Shown here: in pieces, positions 6,826-14,657 of the stretch
Numbering within the stretch: position 1 is the first letter of the stretch
How the letters are laid out: each line of letters begins with the position of its first letter
DNA from: Campylobacterota bacterium
GTDB taxonomy: Bacteria > Campylobacterota > Campylobacteria > Campylobacterales > Sulfurovaceae
Length of the DNA stretch: 32,229 nt
Direction: 5' to 3'
Assembly: GCA_011048515.1 (NCBI GenBank)
Contig: DSDW01000092.1
Location: 1-32,229, forward strand
Notes under the pieces: model-generated
What the model saw: only the letters and a program-made list of their open reading frames with translations
Told to the model about the DNA's origin: nothing
Databases searched by the model: none
Position numbers and translations under genes: made by a program

Positions 6826-9156
6826 ATGGCAGAATACGGTGCTAGTAATATCAAGGTCCTCAAAGGTCTCGAAGCGGTAAGAAAAAGACCGGGGATGTAT
6901 ATCGGTGACACCTCTGAAAAAGGGCTTCACCACCTAGTCTATGAAGTAGTCGACAACTCGATCGATGAAGCGATGGCAGGCTACTGTGATACGATCAAGG
7001 TCACACTCACAAAAGAGGGTTCGGCGATCATCGAGGATAATGGCCGCGGTATCCCGGTCACAGAACACCCGACAGAAAAGATCTCCGCGGCGACAGTCGT
7101 ACTTACCGTCCTTCATGCCGGCGGTAAATTCGACAAAGATACCTATAAGGTCTCAGGCGGACTTCACGGGGTTGGTGTCTCTGTTGTCAATGCACTTTCT
7201 AAAAAACTGGATATGACGATCTTCAAAGATGGACAGATCCACACACAAAGCTTCCAAAAAGGTATCCCCGTTGCACCGCTGGAATCAGGGGATACCACAA
7301 GAAAACACGGGACCAAGATCGAGTTCTGGCCTGACGAAACGATCTTCACAGAGTCGGTAAAGTTCAAGAAAGAGATCCTGATGAAGCGTTTCAAGGAACT
7401 CTGTTACCTCAATCCGAAGATCACGATCGACTTCAGGGACGAAAGAGACGGCACCAAAGAGCTCTTCCACTTTGAGGGCGGCATCCGTCAGTTTGTTGAG
7501 GATATGAACACAAAAGAACCTCTCTCCACTGCACAGTTCTTCAGCGGCAGCGCAGAAGACTCAGAGGGGGGAACTGTTGAGATCGATATTGCGATGATGT
7601 ACTGCAACTCAGATACCGAAAAGGTACTCTCCTTCGTAAACAACATTAAAACTCTGGAGGGGGGTACGCACGAAGCAGGATTCAGGGCCGGTCTCACCAG
7701 ATCACTGGCGAGCTACATCGCAAAAAATGCCAATGCCAAAGAGAAAAATACGAAAATCACCGGGGATGACTGTAAAGAGGGACTGATCGCTATCGTCTCT
7801 GTACGTGTACCGGAACCGCAGTTCGAAGGGCAGACGAAAGGAAAACTGGGTTCAAGCTATGTACGACCGCTTGTCCAAAAACTCTTTAGCGAAAACTTCA
7901 ACAAATACCTCGAAGAGACGCCGATCGAAGCCAAAGCGATCATGGACCAGGTCCTTCTTGCGGCCAGAGGACGTGATGCGGCAAAACGCGCAAAAGAGCT
8001 TGTAAAACGCAAAGACTCGATGAGCGTAGGAACACTGCCGGGCAAACTTGCAGACTGCCAAAGCAAAGACCCTGAGATCTCCGAGATCTACCTTGTGGAG
8101 GGTGACTCTGCGGGTGGTTCAGCAAAACAGGGACGTGACAGGGTATTCCAGGCGATATTGCCTCTGAAAGGTAAGATCCTCAATGTCGAGAAAGCCCGTC
8201 TTGACAAGATCCTCAAATCTGATGAGATCAAAAATATGATCACTGCGCTTGGCTGCGGTATCGGTGACGAATTCGACGAAGAGAGACTGCGATACCACAA
8301 GATCATTATCATGACCGATGCGGATGTCGACGGCAGCCATATCCAAACACTGCTGATGACCTTCTTCTTCAGATTCCTGAGACCGGTGATTGAAAAAGGG
8401 TATCTCTATCTTGCTCAGCCGCCGCTTTACCGTTACAAGAAGGGGAAAAACGAAATGTATCTCAAGGATGATGTAGAGCTGAACAGCTTCCTGATTGAGA
8501 ACGGTATTTCAGCGATCGAAAGCCAGACGATGGGAGAGAACGATCTCATTAACCTGTTCAAGCTTGTCGGACACTATAAAATGACCCTGAAAGATCTGGA
8601 GAACCGTTTCGCATTGACAGAAGTAGTGCGCTATATGATCGAGAACCCTGATATCATAGCAACATCAAATGAGACTCTCTTTAAGACCATCGAAGCCTAT
8701 ATCAACGCACTTGGCTATAATATTCTCAACCAATCGGTCACCGAAGAGCATATCCACCTTTATGTGCAGACCAAAGACGGACTTGAGGAGCTGGTCATTG
8801 ATGATGTTCTCTTTACCAACCCGCAATACAACAGTGCGATCGAGATCCATAAACGCATCAAAGAGCATGTTACAGATGAGTTTGATGACCGGGATCTGCT
8901 TGAACTTTTCGAACAGATAGAAAGCAACGCCAAAAAAGGTGCCTATATCCAACGCTACAAAGGTCTGGGTGAGATGAACCCTGAGCAGTTGTGGGAGACG
9001 ACAATGACACCGGAGAACAGAAAACTGCTTCAGGTGAAAATCGATGATCTCGAAACCGCAAGTGAAACCTTTACACTCTTTATGGGAGACGAAGTTGAAC
9101 CTAGACGTAACTACATCGAAACCCATGCAAAAGACGTAAAACACCTGGATGTCTGA
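6826..9156 (+). CDS. gyrB: DNA gyrase subunit B
   Basis: A 776-residue ATPase subunit of gyrase, which introduces negative supercoils with GyrA. The GHKL ATPase shows catalytic E40 and N44 (EVVDNSIDEA), D71 (DNGRGIP) and the lid GGLHGVGVSVVNAL near 111. The TOPRIM domain has E425 in YLVEGDSAGGSAKQGRDR and D498/D500/D502 in DADVDGSH. The C-terminus carries the GyrA-contacting RYKGLGEMNPEQLW. Length is normal for GyrB without the E. coli 170-residue insertion. The stop shares its last base with the next start (TGATG at 9154-9158), implying translational coupling to a signalling protein. Confidence 0.97.
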   Translation: MAEYGASNIKVLKGLEAVRKRPGMYIGDTSEKGLHHLVYEVVDNSIDEAMAGYCDTIKVTLTKEGSAIIEDNGRGIPVTEHPTEKISAATVVLTVLHAGGKFDKDTYKVSGGLHGVGVSVVNALSKKLDMTIFKDGQIHTQSFQKGIPVAPLESGDTTRKHGTKIEFWPDETIFTESVKFKKEILMKRFKELCYLNPKITIDFRDERDGTKELFHFEGGIRQFVEDMNTKEPLSTAQFFSGSAEDSEGGTVEIDIAMMYCNSDTEKVLSFVNNIKTLEGGTHEAGFRAGLTRSLASYIAKNANAKEKNTKITGDDCKEGLIAIVSVRVPEPQFEGQTKGKLGSSYVRPLVQKLFSENFNKYLEETPIEAKAIMDQVLLAARGRDAAKRAKELVKRKDSMSVGTLPGKLADCQSKDPEISEIYLVEGDSAGGSAKQGRDRVFQAILPLKGKILNVEKARLDKILKSDEIKNMITALGCGIGDEFDEERLRYHKIIIMTDADVDGSHIQTLLMTFFFRFLRPVIEKGYLYLAQPPLYRYKKGKNEMYLKDDVELNSFLIENGISAIESQTMGENDLINLFKLVGHYKMTLKDLENRFALTEVVRYMIENPDIIATSNETLFKTIEAYINALGYNILNQSVTEEHIHLYVQTKDGLEELVIDDVLFTNPQYNSAIEIHKRIKEHVTDEFDDRDLLELFEQIESNAKKGAYIQRYKGLGEMNPEQLWETTMTPENRKLLQVKIDDLETASETFTLFMGDEVEPRRNYIETHAKDVKHLDV

Positions 9157-10589
9157 TGCTCCTGTCCGAACTTGAGGAACGGGGAAGACGCTTTAAGCTT
9201 GCCCTCAGAGCTGCGATACCGATTCTTTTATTGGCTGCATTGGTTTTCTACACCACATTCCTCAAAGGGGAGATCGTTGATCTTAACTTTGAAAACAATA
9301 TACTCATCGCTGCGATGGTCTTTATCTCAGTCTACTTTATCTACTTCTTTCTTGAAAGGAGCGCAGAAGAGTCCCTGATAGACCCCGTTACGCACGGTTT
9401 CAATGAAAAAGCATTTTGGGACAAGCTCAAAAAGAAAAAATCCGATGTTTTGGCACTCATTGTTATCGATAACCTCTATTTGATCAACCAGAACTACAGT
9501 AACGAGCAGATTGATCTGCTCCTCTACAACCTGACACACAAACTCAACCATTATTTCCGGAACAAAGGAGTAAAAGAACCGTTGATCGCAAGACGTTACG
9601 GAGCAGAGTTTCTTGTAGGCCTGGAGAGTACTGATGGACCTATTGCAGACATTATCGATGCATTTATTGACAAATACAGCAGTATTGATAATATAGAGCT
9701 GGATTATCAGTATGCCGTAATCACCAATCCGGATCTGGACCACGAAAAAGATATCTCCCAACTTCGCAATATTTTAAATACGGGTCAACGCAAAGACAAA
9801 CCCTCCAGGGAAGCGGTAAAAGATGCCAAAGAGTATACCCAGATCGAACAGTCTATTGTCTCAGCTATGAAAAACGGGGAGCTTTCTCTCTCGTTCCGTC
9901 CGCTTCTCAATCTTCATACCGGCATCATAGACATCTATGAAATTGCCGTCAAACTCAAACATCCGGCCAAAGAAGATATCCCTCCCCGTATCTTTCTTCC
10001 CATCATCAATAAAATGGGGCTGGGAAGGGAGTATGATCTCCTGCTTCTCAAGCATATCGTCAAGCTGCTGCCTCTCATCGACCAAAAGATCTCTTTGACT
10101 TTCAATCTTTCACCTTTTTCATTGAGAGACACACAGTTTCAAGACCATTTCTTCAAACTGCTTGAAGCATCAGAGATCGATGCATCCAGACTCATCATAC
10201 AGCTGTATGAGAGGAAAACACACCATAACCTAAGCGGATACCTCAGAACGCTTAAACAGATACGTGCACAGGGTGTACGCATCTGTATCGACAATTTCGG
10301 TGCATCTAATGCCTCTATGGAGTACATGAAACACTTCTCTTTTGATATGATCCAGTTCGACAGGGAGTATGTCACCAAACTCTCTGACAAAACCACTCTT
10401 GCGATGCTGGACTCATTGATAAAAATGGCCAAAGAGCTTGGGATCACTACCGTTGCAAAATGGGTGGACAAAGAGGAACAGAAAGAGAAACTCAAGTCAC
10501 TGGGTATCGATTATCTTCAGGGGTTCGGTATTGCCAAACCGGTTGACGAATACCATCTGATAGAACAATACAATAAAGGAAACAAATGA
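9156..10589 (+). CDS. Membrane-anchored degenerate GGDEF-EAL protein (probable c-di-GMP receptor or structural protein)
   Basis: A 477-residue protein with two predicted membrane helices (about 18-36 and 46-66), a GGDEF-like domain (about 75-215) and an EAL-like domain (about 230-470). The GGDEF signature is reduced to RYGAEF (147-152), one residue short and lacking the signature Asp. In the EAL domain E262 (YEIA), N317 (FNLSP) and D379 remain. The metal/catalytic positions are changed: the EIT glutamate is Q349, DDFG is DNFG (N380), the catalytic Lys is Q400, and the AEGVE-type loop reads AKWVD (K435, D438). It should therefore neither make nor cleave c-di-GMP, though it may bind it. It is joined to gyrB by a one-base overlap and to queF by ATGA. 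Its target is unknown. Confidence 0.85.
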   Translation: MLLSELEERGRRFKLALRAAIPILLLAALVFYTTFLKGEIVDLNFENNILIAAMVFISVYFIYFFLERSAEESLIDPVTHGFNEKAFWDKLKKKKSDVLALIVIDNLYLINQNYSNEQIDLLLYNLTHKLNHYFRNKGVKEPLIARRYGAEFLVGLESTDGPIADIIDAFIDKYSSIDNIELDYQYAVITNPDLDHEKDISQLRNILNTGQRKDKPSREAVKDAKEYTQIEQSIVSAMKNGELSLSFRPLLNLHTGIIDIYEIAVKLKHPAKEDIPPRIFLPIINKMGLGREYDLLLLKHIVKLLPLIDQKISLTFNLSPFSLRDTQFQDHFFKLLEASEIDASRLIIQLYERKTHHNLSGYLRTLKQIRAQGVRICIDNFGASNASMEYMKHFSFDMIQFDREYVTKLSDKTTLAMLDSLIKMAKELGITTVAKWVDKEEQKEKLKSLGIDYLQGFGIAKPVDEYHLIEQYNKGNK

Positions 10590-10963
10590 AATACGGTGAA
10601 AAAGAGATACGCGAATTTGACATTAATGCCCAGGAGAACTTCTGGCCAAACGAACATGATAAAAACTATACGATCAATATAGAACTTCCGGAGTTCATGT
10701 GTATGTGTCCACGCTCGGGATATCCTGATTTTGCTACGCTGAGACTCTCCTATCAGCCTGACAAAAAAGTGATCGAGCTCAAAGCGCTCAAACTCTATAT
10801 CAACTCATTTATGCACAGGTATATCTCCCATGAAAATGTTGCCAATGAGATATACGATACACTTCATGGCAAACTTCAGCCAAAGTCTATGAAACTGGTC
10901 GCAGACTTCAACCCGCGCGGGAATGTACATACGGTCATAGAGATCGATAGCGAGAAGTGTTAG
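10586..10963 (+). CDS. queF: NADPH-dependent 7-cyano-7-deazaguanine reductase (QueF)
   Basis: A 125-residue unimodular QueF, which reduces preQ0 to preQ1 in queuosine tRNA modification. It shows the catalytic Cys C41 in CPRSGYPDFATL with the following D48, the QueF motif ELKALKLY (64-71) and the SFMHRYISHE region (74-83). A second Cys (C39) precedes the nucleophile. Length and layout match the B. subtilis-type enzyme (about 165 residues), but shorter at the N-terminus. It overlaps the preceding degenerate GGDEF-EAL gene by four bases (ATGA). No other queuosine gene is present locally. Confidence 0.93.
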   Translation: MKYGEKEIREFDINAQENFWPNEHDKNYTINIELPEFMCMCPRSGYPDFATLRLSYQPDKKVIELKALKLYINSFMHRYISHENVANEIYDTLHGKLQPKSMKLVADFNPRGNVHTVIEIDSEKC

Positions 10964-11390: not shown

Positions 11391-11729
11391 ATGAGCAAGT
11401 TAGAAGAAAAAATACTACACTATTCCCAAGAGGCCAAAAAACTGGGTTTGGATCTTAGTGACACCCTGATCGCAAAGGCTACAGAATCACTAGTGCCGGC
11501 GATCTATAACCAGGATTCTGAAACCGTATCCTGTTCGGACCAGTCAGAGCTTGAAACGATTAAAAAGAACTTTTTACAAAAAAAACTCGGTCTGGAGAAT
11601 GATGCTGAGATGGATCATGCGATACAAAAGGTATGTGAAGCAATGGGCAGCTCAAACAGACATAAATACAGAGCGATCTTCTATGCACTTTTGGTTCAGG
11701 AGTTTGGGAAAGAGTCATTATATCTATAA
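11391..11729 (+). CDS. DUF2853 family protein
   Basis: A 112-residue soluble, probably all-helical protein. It shows the features I associate with DUF2853: an N-terminal helix with LGLDLSDTLIAKAT, the central AIYNQDSETVSCSDQSEL, then FLQKKLGL, VCEAMGSSNRHKYRAIFYALL and a terminal FGKESLY. The family is common in proteobacteria and has no established function. I took ATG 11391 rather than the GTG at 11385 because the GTG lies inside the AGGAG ribosome site. It follows the small HTH gene but has its own promoter. Confidence 0.85.
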   Translation: MSKLEEKILHYSQEAKKLGLDLSDTLIAKATESLVPAIYNQDSETVSCSDQSELETIKKNFLQKKLGLENDAEMDHAIQKVCEAMGSSNRHKYRAIFYALLVQEFGKESLYL

Positions 11730-11837
11730 CGAGAAGCGTAAATCCAACTGCATTCATCTATTTGAGAAGGTTGCCAAGCAGATTATTCGAAAGGATTTAC
11801 TGACTGACTTTCCAGACAGAGAAGAGATAATACGGAT

Positions 11838-11864
11838 GAAGAAGGAGATATTGGTCTCTTCTTC
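11838..11864 (+). terminator. Possible terminator after DUF2853
   Basis: GAAGAA-G-GAGA pairs with TCTC-TTCTTC around a six-base loop, with one bulged G. The right arm itself supplies a pyrimidine tract. The rest of the 182-base gap (11730-11911) holds no recognisable gene. An open frame continues through it from an out-of-frame reading of DUF2853, but it has no start of its own and no family resemblance. Confidence 0.35.
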
Positions 11865-11911
11865 TTGCCGCTCGTAAAAGCTTCTAAACGGAAAGCAGGA
11901 TAACAAATACT

Positions 11912-12709
11912 CTATTTTAAAACACGTTTGAGAAGATCAACGGTTGCAGGATGTAAAATCATATAGCGCGGGAGCGCCATAATGGGTTGATTTCTATCAG
12001 CATGTTTACGCTCTATTGTAAAAGCTGCCTTATACCCTGCTTCTTTTGCCTTGCGCTGAAGCTCTTCATCATAGATGCCAAATGCCCATGCCAAATACTT
12101 TATTTCATGGCCCATTTTTGCTTCCAGTATATGTTTGGATTCGCCCAGTTGCATTGTTACAAATTGATCATATGCTTCAGCAGAAAGCCTTTTTTTATCT
12201 TTTTTAAAATTTGGATGCCAATAGGTGTGAGATTCTACATGAAATAGCTCTGTCTCCTCAAGCTCATGCAACTGTTCCCAGGTTAGAGCATAACGAGCAT
12301 TGGAAATTGCACTTGGGTAAATAAAAAGGGTAACGGGTACCTTATAATATTTCACAACAGGCAGCATCTCAAAGTAGACACTTTTATGGCCATCATCAAC
12401 TGTAATTACAACCGGTTTATCCGGGATGTTACCCCTTTCTCCTTTGAGATACTGTGCAGCGGTATCAAGTGAAATCACCGTATATCCATTTTCCTTCAGC
12501 CACGCAAGTTGTTTCACAAAATCTGCAGTTTTTACCGTCATCTCATCATTGATCTGTGTTGCGAACCGATGATAACATAGAATAGGAATCTGCGTAGAAG
12601 TATCATTTGATTGAGCAAAAGAGCTATGAGAAAAAGAGAAAAAAATCACAAACAGCTGATATAAGAATTTTCCGATCTTACCACCACTATCCCTGTCCAA
12701 GAAGATCAT
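11912..12709 (-). CDS. Exported NodB-type polysaccharide deacetylase (PgaB N-domain-like)
   Basis: A 265-residue carbohydrate esterase family 4-like protein. A signal peptide is likely: a basic stretch near K11-K14, a hydrophobic core at 15-28, and possible cleavage after SSFA (about 32). NodB motifs are TVDDG (103-107, D105 and D106), HTYWH (161-165, the two zinc His residues) and LAWAFGIYD (206-214). The opening PILCYHRF (42-49) is typical of PgaB/IcaB-like deacetylases acting on N-acetylglucosamine polymers outside the cytoplasm. The start overlaps the stop of the upstream glycosidase gene by four bases (ATGA), so the two are translated together. The substrate (PNAG-like exopolysaccharide, peptidoglycan or another) cannot be read from the sequence. 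Confidence 0.85.
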   Translation of the reverse strand: MIFLDRDSGGKIGKFLYQLFVIFFSFSHSSFAQSNDTSTQIPILCYHRFATQINDEMTVKTADFVKQLAWLKENGYTVISLDTAAQYLKGERGNIPDKPVVITVDDGHKSVYFEMLPVVKYYKVPVTLFIYPSAISNARYALTWEQLHELEETELFHVESHTYWHPNFKKDKKRLSAEAYDQFVTMQLGESKHILEAKMGHEIKYLAWAFGIYDEELQRKAKEAGYKAAFTIERKHADRNQPIMALPRYMILHPATVDLLKRVLK

Positions 12710-13956
12710 TTCTCAATGCCCTCTGCCGAGTATCTGTTACCTGCATTCCATAACATCCACCCATTGCTTCCGAAATCTTCACTTGCACGTATCTGTTCAC
12801 TGATCTCTTTTTTACCGTAATTACGTCTGTCAAAGGCATAATCTTTAAATGCCTGCAGCCAGGGGCGGTAAGCGAGCGGAGAACCGCTCGATTTCTCCAA
12901 TGCCTTATCCAATGAGTGTTTCACAATCTGATAATTGGCTTTTACAGGATTCGGATATCCCGGGATACCTACCTGAAAGCTGCTGGGATACAGCATCGGT
13001 GAAATATAATCCACATAAGGGGCCATAGCATCCACGCGCTGCCCTATTCCAAGATCAGCATCATTCCAACAGACATATCCAAAGATATCTATAGAAATAA
13101 ATACATTGTAGGGAATCAAACGAAACCTTGCATACTCCAGAAATTCCGTAATGATGCGTACACGTTCCGACTGTCTGTTTTTCACAGAGAAACTCAACCC
13201 TCTTTTGTCCGGGAAACGCACATAGTCAAACTGTATCTCGTCAAATCCCGCTTTTGCACTCTCTTCTGCTATTGTCAAAAGATATTCCCATGCTTGTTTA
13301 TGTGAGGGATCGATCCAATAGGATCCTTCCCTGTCTCTATAGAGTGTGCCATTGGGATACTTTGCCCCCAATTGGGGAAAAGCCCTGACAAAAGTGGTAT
13401 CCTTGAAACATACAACACGTGCTATGGTATAGACACCCTCCTCTTTCAGTTCACCGATAAAATCTTTCAGCTGAGGGAAAGATACCCTTTTTTGTGCACC
13501 GATCTCTTTTGCGACAGGGCTAGAGGAATCATAGGCTATCTCTCCCCTATCCGTTTTCACATCGATCACCAAGGCATTGATCTGCGTAGTACGGATAAGA
13601 TGCTTGGCATTGCCCATGATTTTTTTATTGGCTGCCCCATAGCTGGAGAGATAGAGTGCCTTGGGATGAAACTTCTTGAGATAGATTTTTCGCTTAAAGT
13701 GTGTAAAGATACGTTCATAGCCTGCTGCACGAATACCGATGATATCGGTATGAGGGATCTGATAATGGCCTTCTCGATCTGTACGGTACATCTTGCCGTT
13801 GGCAGTGATGATCGCAGATGCGATCGGTTTATCGGTCGATTCATCCAGGATCATACCCTCCATAGCAGCAACAGATGTAGAGAAACAATGAATGACAAAA
13901 ACAAAGAGTATATATCGGATAGTCATCTCTCTATAATGACTGAGAAAAGTAAGCAT
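12706..13956 (-). CDS. Exported DUF4015-type putative glycoside hydrolase with N-terminal beta-sandwich domain
   Basis: A 416-residue protein. A signal peptide is apparent (hydrophobic core about 15-30, VAA near 29-31). It is followed by a carboxypeptidase-regulatory-like domain (about 33-92; GMILDESTDKPI, then YRTDREGHYQI), then a TIM-barrel domain of the putative glycosidase family DUF4015 (about 98-416). Barrel signatures are ALVIDVKTDRG (128-138), YWIDPSHKQAWEY (214-226) and FDEIQFDYVRFPD (238-250), whose acidic residues are candidate catalysts. I chose ATG 13956, preceded by GGAGGGAGG, over an in-frame ATG at 13989. MTIRY at residue 11 is a further alternative. It is coupled by ATGA overlap to the deacetylase. 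The substrate is unknown. Confidence 0.8.
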   Translation of the reverse strand: MLTFLSHYREMTIRYILFVFVIHCFSTSVAAMEGMILDESTDKPIASAIITANGKMYRTDREGHYQIPHTDIIGIRAAGYERIFTHFKRKIYLKKFHPKALYLSSYGAANKKIMGNAKHLIRTTQINALVIDVKTDRGEIAYDSSSPVAKEIGAQKRVSFPQLKDFIGELKEEGVYTIARVVCFKDTTFVRAFPQLGAKYPNGTLYRDREGSYWIDPSHKQAWEYLLTIAEESAKAGFDEIQFDYVRFPDKRGLSFSVKNRQSERVRIITEFLEYARFRLIPYNVFISIDIFGYVCWNDADLGIGQRVDAMAPYVDYISPMLYPSSFQVGIPGYPNPVKANYQIVKHSLDKALEKSSGSPLAYRPWLQAFKDYAFDRRNYGKKEISEQIRASEDFGSNGWMLWNAGNRYSAEGIEK

Positions 13957-14015
13957 ATTTCCTCCCTCCTGTTGCATTGTGCTCTTCACATTGTAGCTAG
14001 TTATGCATTAAGTGT

Positions 14016-14021
14016 ATAATA
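14016..14021 (-). promoter_or_regulatory. Possible -10 of the glycosidase-deacetylase operon
   Basis: TATTAT on the minus strand, about 60 bases before the glycosidase start and after a T-rich tract. A plus-strand TATAAT overlaps it at 14015-14020, but no gene follows on that strand. Confidence 0.35.
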
Positions 14022-14078
14022 AAAAATTAATTTAATGAATTCGAAATATCTTTTTAATAAAGTCTATGCGATCAAGTC

Positions 14079-14444
14079 TCAAAGCTTGATAAAAAAGAAA
14101 TATTTCTTCTCCTCTACAGACCTGCCAAACCCTATCACTTCAATATCACTATGCTGATGGTTTACATATACTCTTACTTCATACATCATTTTATCCATAT
14201 CATAGATCAAAATATACTTGATCAGCTCTCCGATCGTTAAGCTGTCAGAGGAGCCGTCAATCCTCATTATAAGTCTTCTTCCCGCTTCATCCAAAGTAAA
14301 ACTGTTAAGAGCTGCTTCACCGCCATAGATCAGCTTCTCTGGATCATTGGCATCTTCTTTAAGCAACATAGCGTGAACGGTAAAATCAGGCTCATTGCCT
14401 ATCTCTGTCCTGATATCTTCGATAAGGTCGATAATGAATTTCAT
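14079..14444 (-). CDS. Hypothetical protein, 121 residues
   Basis: I do not recognise this family. The preferred start is the ATG at 14444 (MKFIIDLIEDIRTEIG), preceded by AAAAGGGA. Further upstream the frame runs into AT-rich intergenic sequence and a palindromic repeat, so longer versions are unlikely. The protein is soluble and acidic, with an amphipathic N-terminal helix (about 1-15). Probable alternating strands follow (VHAMLLKED, LIYGGEAALNSF, RRLIMRID), then a helix (TIGELIKYILIYD) and a C-terminal strand pair. No signal peptide, membrane segment or metal motif is visible. It lies between fusA and the glycosidase operon with its own promoter-like sequence. Confidence 0.75.
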   Translation of the reverse strand: MKFIIDLIEDIRTEIGNEPDFTVHAMLLKEDANDPEKLIYGGEAALNSFTLDEAGRRLIMRIDGSSDSLTIGELIKYILIYDMDKMMYEVRVYVNHQHSDIEVIGFGRSVEEKKYFFFIKL

Positions 14445-14460
14445 AAAATCCCTTTTAAAT

Positions 14461-14466
14461 ACTATA
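14461..14466 (-). promoter_or_regulatory. Possible -10 of the 121-residue hypothetical gene
   Basis: TATAGT on the minus strand, 16 bases before the start codon, in strongly AT-rich DNA. Further TATTAT-like hexamers lie upstream, so the exact site is uncertain. Confidence 0.3.
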
Positions 14467-14560
14467 CTATTTCTATTGAAAATAAAAATAAGATAATATT
14501 TAAAAAATCCTTTTGTGTAATGTTTTGGATTTTGTAGAAGTTTTTTGTAGGTTAGAAGGT

Positions 14561-14657
14561 TTTGAAGAAGGAGCGTACTTCCAGTACGTGACTGAGACAC
14601 TCCTTCAAAGATGCAGGTACCCCCGTCGCTAAAGCGAAAGCGGGGTAAAAGTCCTGC
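14561..14657. repeat. Branched palindromic element just after fusA (two nested hairpins)
   Basis: Part one (14561-14609) has outer arms GAAGGAG (14567-14573) and CTCCTTC (14600-14606) enclosing a perfect hairpin, CGTACT-TCC-AGTACG (14574-14588). Part two (14613-14657) has outer arms GCAGG/CCTGC, middle arms TACCCC/GGGGTA and inner TCGCT/AGCGA (626-637 of the 14 kb block). It begins six bases after the fusA stop. It looks like a non-coding repeat family or a transcript-end structure. It could act as a terminator for fusA, but lacks a U-run immediately after the stems. The remainder of the gap to 14444 is AT-rich. Confidence 0.6.

Follow-up and report, generated by a model that had tools for sequence, protein, structure and literature searches.

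An overlapping NodB-type deacetylase and DUF4015 gene pair in Campylobacterota with the predicted fold combination of PgaB

Two overlapping genes in the window, by which we mean the whole 32,229-nucleotide stretch that was analysed, encode a NodB-type polysaccharide deacetylase and a DUF4015 glycoside-hydrolase-like protein. They probably form an exported PgaB-like module assembled from two proteins, with peptidoglycan as its most likely substrate. More tentatively, we propose that DUF4015 may be a new glycosidase family, present in several phyla, that needs GlcNAc to be deacetylated by a dedicated partner before it can cut peptidoglycan. If true, this would provide the first function for the widespread glycosidase-like DUF4015 proteins and link the design of PgaB to cell-wall turnover.

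Organization of the gene pair

The pair and its local features are located as follows.

12706..13956, minus strand: DUF4015 glycoside-hydrolase-like gene, 416 aa (PF13200, E=6.4e-108)
11912..12709, minus strand: permuted NodB/IcaB/PgaB-N-type polysaccharide deacetylase gene, 265 aa (PF01522, E=8e-21)
12706..12709, minus strand: ATGA overlap, the TGA stop of the DUF4015 gene lying within the ATG-A start of the deacetylase gene (sequence)
13216..13242, minus strand: DEIQFDYVR signature, residues 239-247, barrel strand 4 (72-protein alignment and model)
13960..13965, minus strand: Shine-Dalgarno-like GGAGGA, 5' of the DUF4015 ATG (sequence)
11730..14078, strand not applicable: pair block, found complete or wholly missing (empty sites in genomes of the same genus)

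The first-pass annotation had placed a coupled pair at 11912-13956. Both ends are right, and the two genes were confirmed, both on the minus strand, with the DUF4015 gene as the upstream member and the deacetylase gene as the downstream member. The four-base overlap that it reported is seen in the sequence and suggests translational coupling. The signal peptides that it assigned correspond to a hydrophobic leader helix at the start of each AlphaFold2 model, and both proteins are predicted to be exported.

The pair block is bounded by a DUF2853 gene (ending at 11729) and a gene for a 173-aa protein (ending at 14079). The window neighbours, most of which were named by eye from their sequences, are housekeeping genes, including gyrB, a GGDEF/EAL-type gene, queF, the DUF2853 gene, the 173-aa gene, fusA, rpsG, rpsL, rpoC, and rpoB. 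In agreement with the earlier reading, no polymer synthase or porin gene was recognised among the genes of the window. PADLOC gave no hits for defence systems. In the interval 6826-10963, gyrB, the gene for the GGDEF/EAL-type membrane protein, and queF overlap by 1-4 bp, and the latter two remain neighbours throughout the genus of the window. The 173-aa ORF (14079-14600) adjoins fusA, has no Pfam match and is kept across the genus at about 45-79% identity; its real start is probably internal (MKFIIDLIEDIRTE).

Folds and conserved residues of the two proteins

The DUF4015 protein matches PF13200 over the entire profile (361 bits, positions 1-313 of 313; gathering cut-off 27). It consists of a leader (about residues 1-31), a beta domain (about 32-93), and a TIM-type barrel (100-409). 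The beta domain, correctly recognised at first pass as preceding the glycosidase, gives a weak CarboxypepD_reg-like match under the cut-off, and several clear copies of such a domain are found in Chloroflexi DUF4015 homologues. The top PDB match of the AlphaFold2 model (pLDDT 95.8) is 4s1a, an uncharacterised member of the same family. The next is the C-terminal glycosidase domain of PgaB (E=2e-12 and several entries, TM about 0.6 by target), which is the best characterised fold for this protein, and the spore cortex-lytic enzyme SleL is among the matches ranking after it. The hhalign comparisons with PgaB-C (E=0.02) and DigH (E=0.006, probability 6%) were too weak for use, and support for these links was taken from the fold comparison only.

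In an alignment of 72 DUF4015 proteins from several phyla, D186, E240, D244, and D316 are invariant, and D132, D290, and D301 are nearly invariant. The model and the alignment place acidic residues at the strand ends of the TIM-type barrel. Strand 4 is formed by residues 240-244, with D244 at its end. In the model, D244 would occupy the position expected for PgaB D474 and the GH13 nucleophile, to judge from the PgaB study (PMC5933820), and it is likely the catalytic residue of the barrel. Because conserved acidic residues line the barrel, the objection that it might lack acids in the active-site cleft falls away. No measured activity for any DUF4015 protein was found in the literature searched.

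The deacetylase model (pLDDT 91) is most similar to the N-terminal domain of PgaB (3vus, E=5e-17), followed by PplD, BC0361, and others including IcaB. PgaB and IcaB are also its top-scoring family models, and the relation to PgaB was confirmed with hhalign (E=8e-37). H47, D105, D106, H161, and H165 are invariant in 34 deacetylase sequences. The first four align with PgaB H55, D114, D115, and H184, whereas the second His of the pair has a spacing unlike that of PgaB H189. The protein holds the catalytic Asp-Asp, the His motif pair, and the N-terminal His of permuted IcaB-PgaB-type CE4/NodB enzymes, and is predicted from these residues to have CE4/NodB deacetylase activity. Residues 207-211 read WAFG, WTFG, or WVFG in most Campylobacterota members of the group and WPFG in most homologues from other phyla; within the window's group, most deacetylases have WAFG in place of the usual WPFG.

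The combination of a permuted NodB deacetylase and a TIM-barrel glycosidase is common to PgaB and the pair, for which export is predicted. The structure comparison with PgaB suggested at first pass returned its C-terminal half for the DUF4015 protein and its N-terminal half for the NodB protein as the best characterised folds, and the deacetylase motif residues align. In contrast, PgaB is a single protein, and the window has two genes in reversed order. The window barrel belongs to DUF4015 and is preceded by an extra N-terminal beta domain, whereas the barrel of PgaB belongs to GHL13. The pair has no pgaA, pgaC, or pgaD nearby, and its partners in other phyla are PBP4B-like and NamZ domains. 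Against TIGR03938, the PgaB equivalog model, the window deacetylase scored 112.6 bits over the deacetylase part only and missed the cut-off of 321.9. The GHL13/GH153 domain (PF14883) matched neither protein of the pair; a genuine PgaB (L220) used as a control gave E=2e-145. One genome with the adjacent pair, G294, encodes a complete canonical PgaB beside PgaC, away from the pair; among the pair-bearing genomes with PgaC, the check for a complete PgaB was fully done for this one. The description of the pair as PgaB in two genes is right as a likeness of modelled folds. As a family assignment it is wrong: GHL13 is missing, and a true PgaB stands separately in G294.

Conservation of the pair and its partners

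The search for conserved adjacency in Campylobacterota that had been recommended found the pair in nine genomes, far above chance, on the same strand, with the DUF4015 gene first and in at least two chromosomal settings. Five genomes of the window's genus (the window's and four others) carry it at the same site, and it is also present in three genomes of genus g25 and one of g27, the last with other neighbours. On a small contig (L097), the neighbours of the pair are unlike the fusA-gyrB site. The 37 genomes of the window's genus comprise five with both genes, 31 with neither, and one with a distant DUF4015 gene alone in another setting. Twelve pair-less genomes of the genus were inspected. 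In eight, the 173-aa gene comes straight after the DUF2853 gene: the alignment ends are 12-43 bp apart, where the window holds the 2.35-kb pair; two also lack the DUF2853 gene, and two are unreadable at the site. The eight clean empty sites indicate that the pair was gained or lost as a whole block.

Both orthologues are also present, far apart, in family f16 (genus g53, which falls together with records named Sulfuricurvum). Among 397 genomes in the class, both orthologues occur in 15, DUF4015 alone in two, and the deacetylase alone in one (Fisher p=4e-24, a value that counts related genomes as independent). The DUF4015 proteins of other campylobacterotal genera show 35-46% identity and have other neighbours. 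In f16 (L194-L201, L221), the unlinked deacetylase gene lies mostly upstream of an aminotransferase-like gene and in several loci also of a murC-like gene, both identified by eye, which is no more than suggestive; genes for an RND-type efflux set adjoin it on the opposite strand. Genus g23 of the window's family has a different DUF4015 gene, which lacks the beta domain (L090:6839-9352, L092, L094, L095, L096). At most a few bases separate it from a downstream gene of about 406 codons, which in L090, the one tested, encodes an MFS transporter, a possible uptake partner. Band_7 and PRA-CH/PRA-PH genes lie close to these loci.

A scan of public genomes was evaluated for its best 80 loci, which are biased to near relatives. 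Among these, Nitrospirota, Acidobacteriota, and several classes of Proteobacteria have a close relative of the deacetylase immediately upstream of DUF4015, the two genes mostly overlapping or almost touching. Of the 33 loci in this related DUF4015 clade outside Campylobacterota, 26 have the order NodB then DUF4015 and seven have no adjacent NodB; in 14, a neighbouring gene encodes a PBP4B-like PF00144 domain fused to both NamZ domains. Many other DUF4015 proteins are solitary. The gene order of the window, already noted as reversed relative to PgaB, is also reversed relative to most other lineages. In an unbiased sample of 300 genomes from one proteobacterial order, drawn independently of the query, seven have DUF4015, with NodB adjacent in six of the seven and PBP4B-like/NamZ adjacent or fused in six of the seven. 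Trees place the campylobacterotal pair beside the NodB-linked DUF4015 clade. The window pair has the DUF4015 subclade and the adjacent NodB orthologue of these operons; the PBP4B-like and NamZ protein was not found in its genome, which is about 90% complete.

Gene fusions join DUF4015 to each kind of partner. L222 encodes a polypeptide of 1183 aa containing DUF4015, PF00144 (PBP4B-like), NamZ_N, and NamZ_C, and an Anaerolineales protein (L164) combines DUF4015 and a deacetylase in the order of the window. The two kinds of fusion and the joint gain or loss make a shared substrate, as first supposed, likely. Chance adjacency is ruled out by the conservation, the empty sites, and the fusions. In Rokubacteria and Chloroflexi (L148, L152, L153, L162), the gene after DUF4015 encodes a deacetylase from a different subfamily, matching the gene order of the window; this pairing apparently arose independently.

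Substrate and possible mechanism

The first-pass annotation left both a PNAG-like polymer and peptidoglycan open as substrates. Of these, peptidoglycan is better supported, because the linkage to NamZ and PBP4B-like domains in other phyla favours it over PNAG. MurNAc, the sugar that NamZ removes, is characteristic of peptidoglycan. NamZ attacks chain ends and can do so only once the preceding GlcNAc has been removed, as known from NagZ, AmiE, and NamZ of B. subtilis. An exported route for GlcNAc removal is therefore needed, and the deacetylase and the DUF4015 protein would supply it. NamZ is named as an exo-N-acetylmuramidase in Pfam and in a reference cited in PMC10936207. E. coli PBP4B is located in the murR-murQ-murP MurNAc cluster, and the fused PF00144 domain is 34% identical to it.

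In the pair-bearing Campylobacterota tested, which include the window's genome (about 90% complete) and not G034 and G036, no NamZ was found, and a PF00144 protein is absent in 16 of 17, the window's genome again included. Therefore, the strongest link to peptidoglycan comes from homology and not from the window's own genome, where the pair must act alone. A GH3/NagZ-like gene is kept in most Sulfurovaceae-type pair genomes and absent in the f16 g53 genomes. The pair is thus not a simple replacement of NagZ, an idea that we rejected because the two show no clean complement. It counts against peptidoglycan that the best family models and the best fold of the deacetylase are those of PNAG enzymes. 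Also weighing against the proposed module are the WAFG form of the usual WPFG motif, PgaC in most f16 genomes with unlinked orthologues, the seven clade loci lacking an adjacent NodB, and the solitary DUF4015 proteins.

From these comparisons, we infer the activity of the pair, its peptidoglycan substrate, and deacetylation preceding cleavage. Both proteins would exit the cytoplasm, and the barrel would cleave the chain next to the glucosamine produced by deacetylation, D244, which ends strand 4, probably serving as the catalytic residue. In many other phyla, the PBP4B-like serine hydrolase and NamZ protein would subsequently process the peptide and free MurNAc; the lineage of the window would use only the pair, perhaps for trimming at the septum or in turnover. 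Deacetylation is usually viewed as shielding peptidoglycan from hydrolases. If the proposal is true, deacetylation can also mark the glycan for cutting, through a conserved deacetylase-glycosidase module tied to MurNAc release. In PgaB, deacetylation is required for cleavage, and the barrel cuts the polymer treated by its own deacetylase (PMC5933820). The DUF4015 route would be a parallel "deacetylate, then cut" form of wall turnover, distinct from lytic transglycosylases, NagZ, and DigH.

Several known systems share parts of this arrangement. In E. coli, denuded strands are deacetylated by SddA (PMC12440217) and hydrolysed by DigH (PMC12288456). These two enzymes resemble the pair, whose substrate is presumed, as a periplasmic GlcNAc deacetylase and glycosyl hydrolase acting on the peptidoglycan glycan, but they belong to other families (PF04748 for SddA; a weak DUF4015 match for DigH), and their genes are unpaired. 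The muropeptide rescue cluster of B. subtilis, murQ-murR-murP-amiE-nagZ-ybbC(namZ) (PMC5061867), likewise provides exported enzymes that dismantle muropeptides or peptidoglycan. This cluster and the DUF4015 operons found in other phyla have NamZ in common, but the cluster lacks DUF4015 and NodB, and the window's genome lacks NamZ. The PBP4B-like half of the other-phyla protein may correspond to AmiE. Cthe_0052 (PDB 4s1a) is of the same DUF4015 family (phmmer E=5e-48) but is uncharacterised, has a partial structure, and has no known deacetylase partner. In Bacilli, YkyA/PdcF-linked deacetylases and YkyA-DUF4015 fusions are described, so that one helper domain is joined to either a polysaccharide deacetylase or DUF4015 (PMC12700454). 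These bacteria are Gram-positive and a direct NodB-DUF4015 pair is not reported in that work, but the shared helper domain is an independent hint that both enzymes act on the same wall.

It is unlikely that the pair acts on another self-made GlcNAc/GalNAc surface polysaccharide, unrelated to peptidoglycan or PNAG. Hydrolase and deacetylase are commonly paired in exopolysaccharide systems such as PgaB, PelA, and the fungal GAG cluster, and glycosyltransferases scoring below the PgaC cut-off occur elsewhere in the genome. However, a check of the neighbourhoods, also called for at first pass, found no glycosyltransferase, polymerase, or export gene recurring beside the pair, and the partner that does recur releases MurNAc. 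Trimming of a PNAG-like (beta-1,6-GlcNAc) polymer in the manner of PgaB, with a synthase elsewhere in the genome, is quite unlikely. The PgaB and IcaB family models and the PgaB folds of both proteins agree with such a role, and PgaC is present in seven of the eight genomes with unlinked orthologues (f16). Against it, PgaC over the cut-off is absent in eight of the nine adjacent-pair genomes, including the window's (about 90% complete), and none was recognised among the window genes; for this reason a PNAG operon at the window was rejected. The exception, G294, keeps its complete PgaB next to PgaC and apart from the pair, and the NamZ and PBP4B-like partners of other phyla would be senseless for PNAG.

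That the pair serves feeding, breaking down peptidoglycan or chitin fragments of other organisms and not the cell's own wall, is very unlikely. Its patchy distribution by gain or loss as a block, a LysM domain on one Chloroflexi DUF4015 protein (L167), and the coupling of DUF4015 to an MFS transporter gene in g23 would suit this role, but the hosts appear chemolithotrophic, judging from named relatives, and the pair here has neither a NamZ step nor a linked transporter. Finally, the C-terminal half of PgaB was initially regarded as a binding domain (PMC5933820) and DUF4015 resembles it only weakly in sequence, but a role of DUF4015 as a glycan-binding partner that presents polymer to the deacetylase, and not as a hydrolase, is highly improbable given its invariant acidic residues, which are as expected for an enzyme.

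Campylobacterotal DUF4015 proteins of the window's clade were also found in DYPS01000001.1 (L113, titled Desulfosporosinus) and CAMCYD010000082.1 (L112, titled Helicobacter pylori), and the names of both records look wrong.
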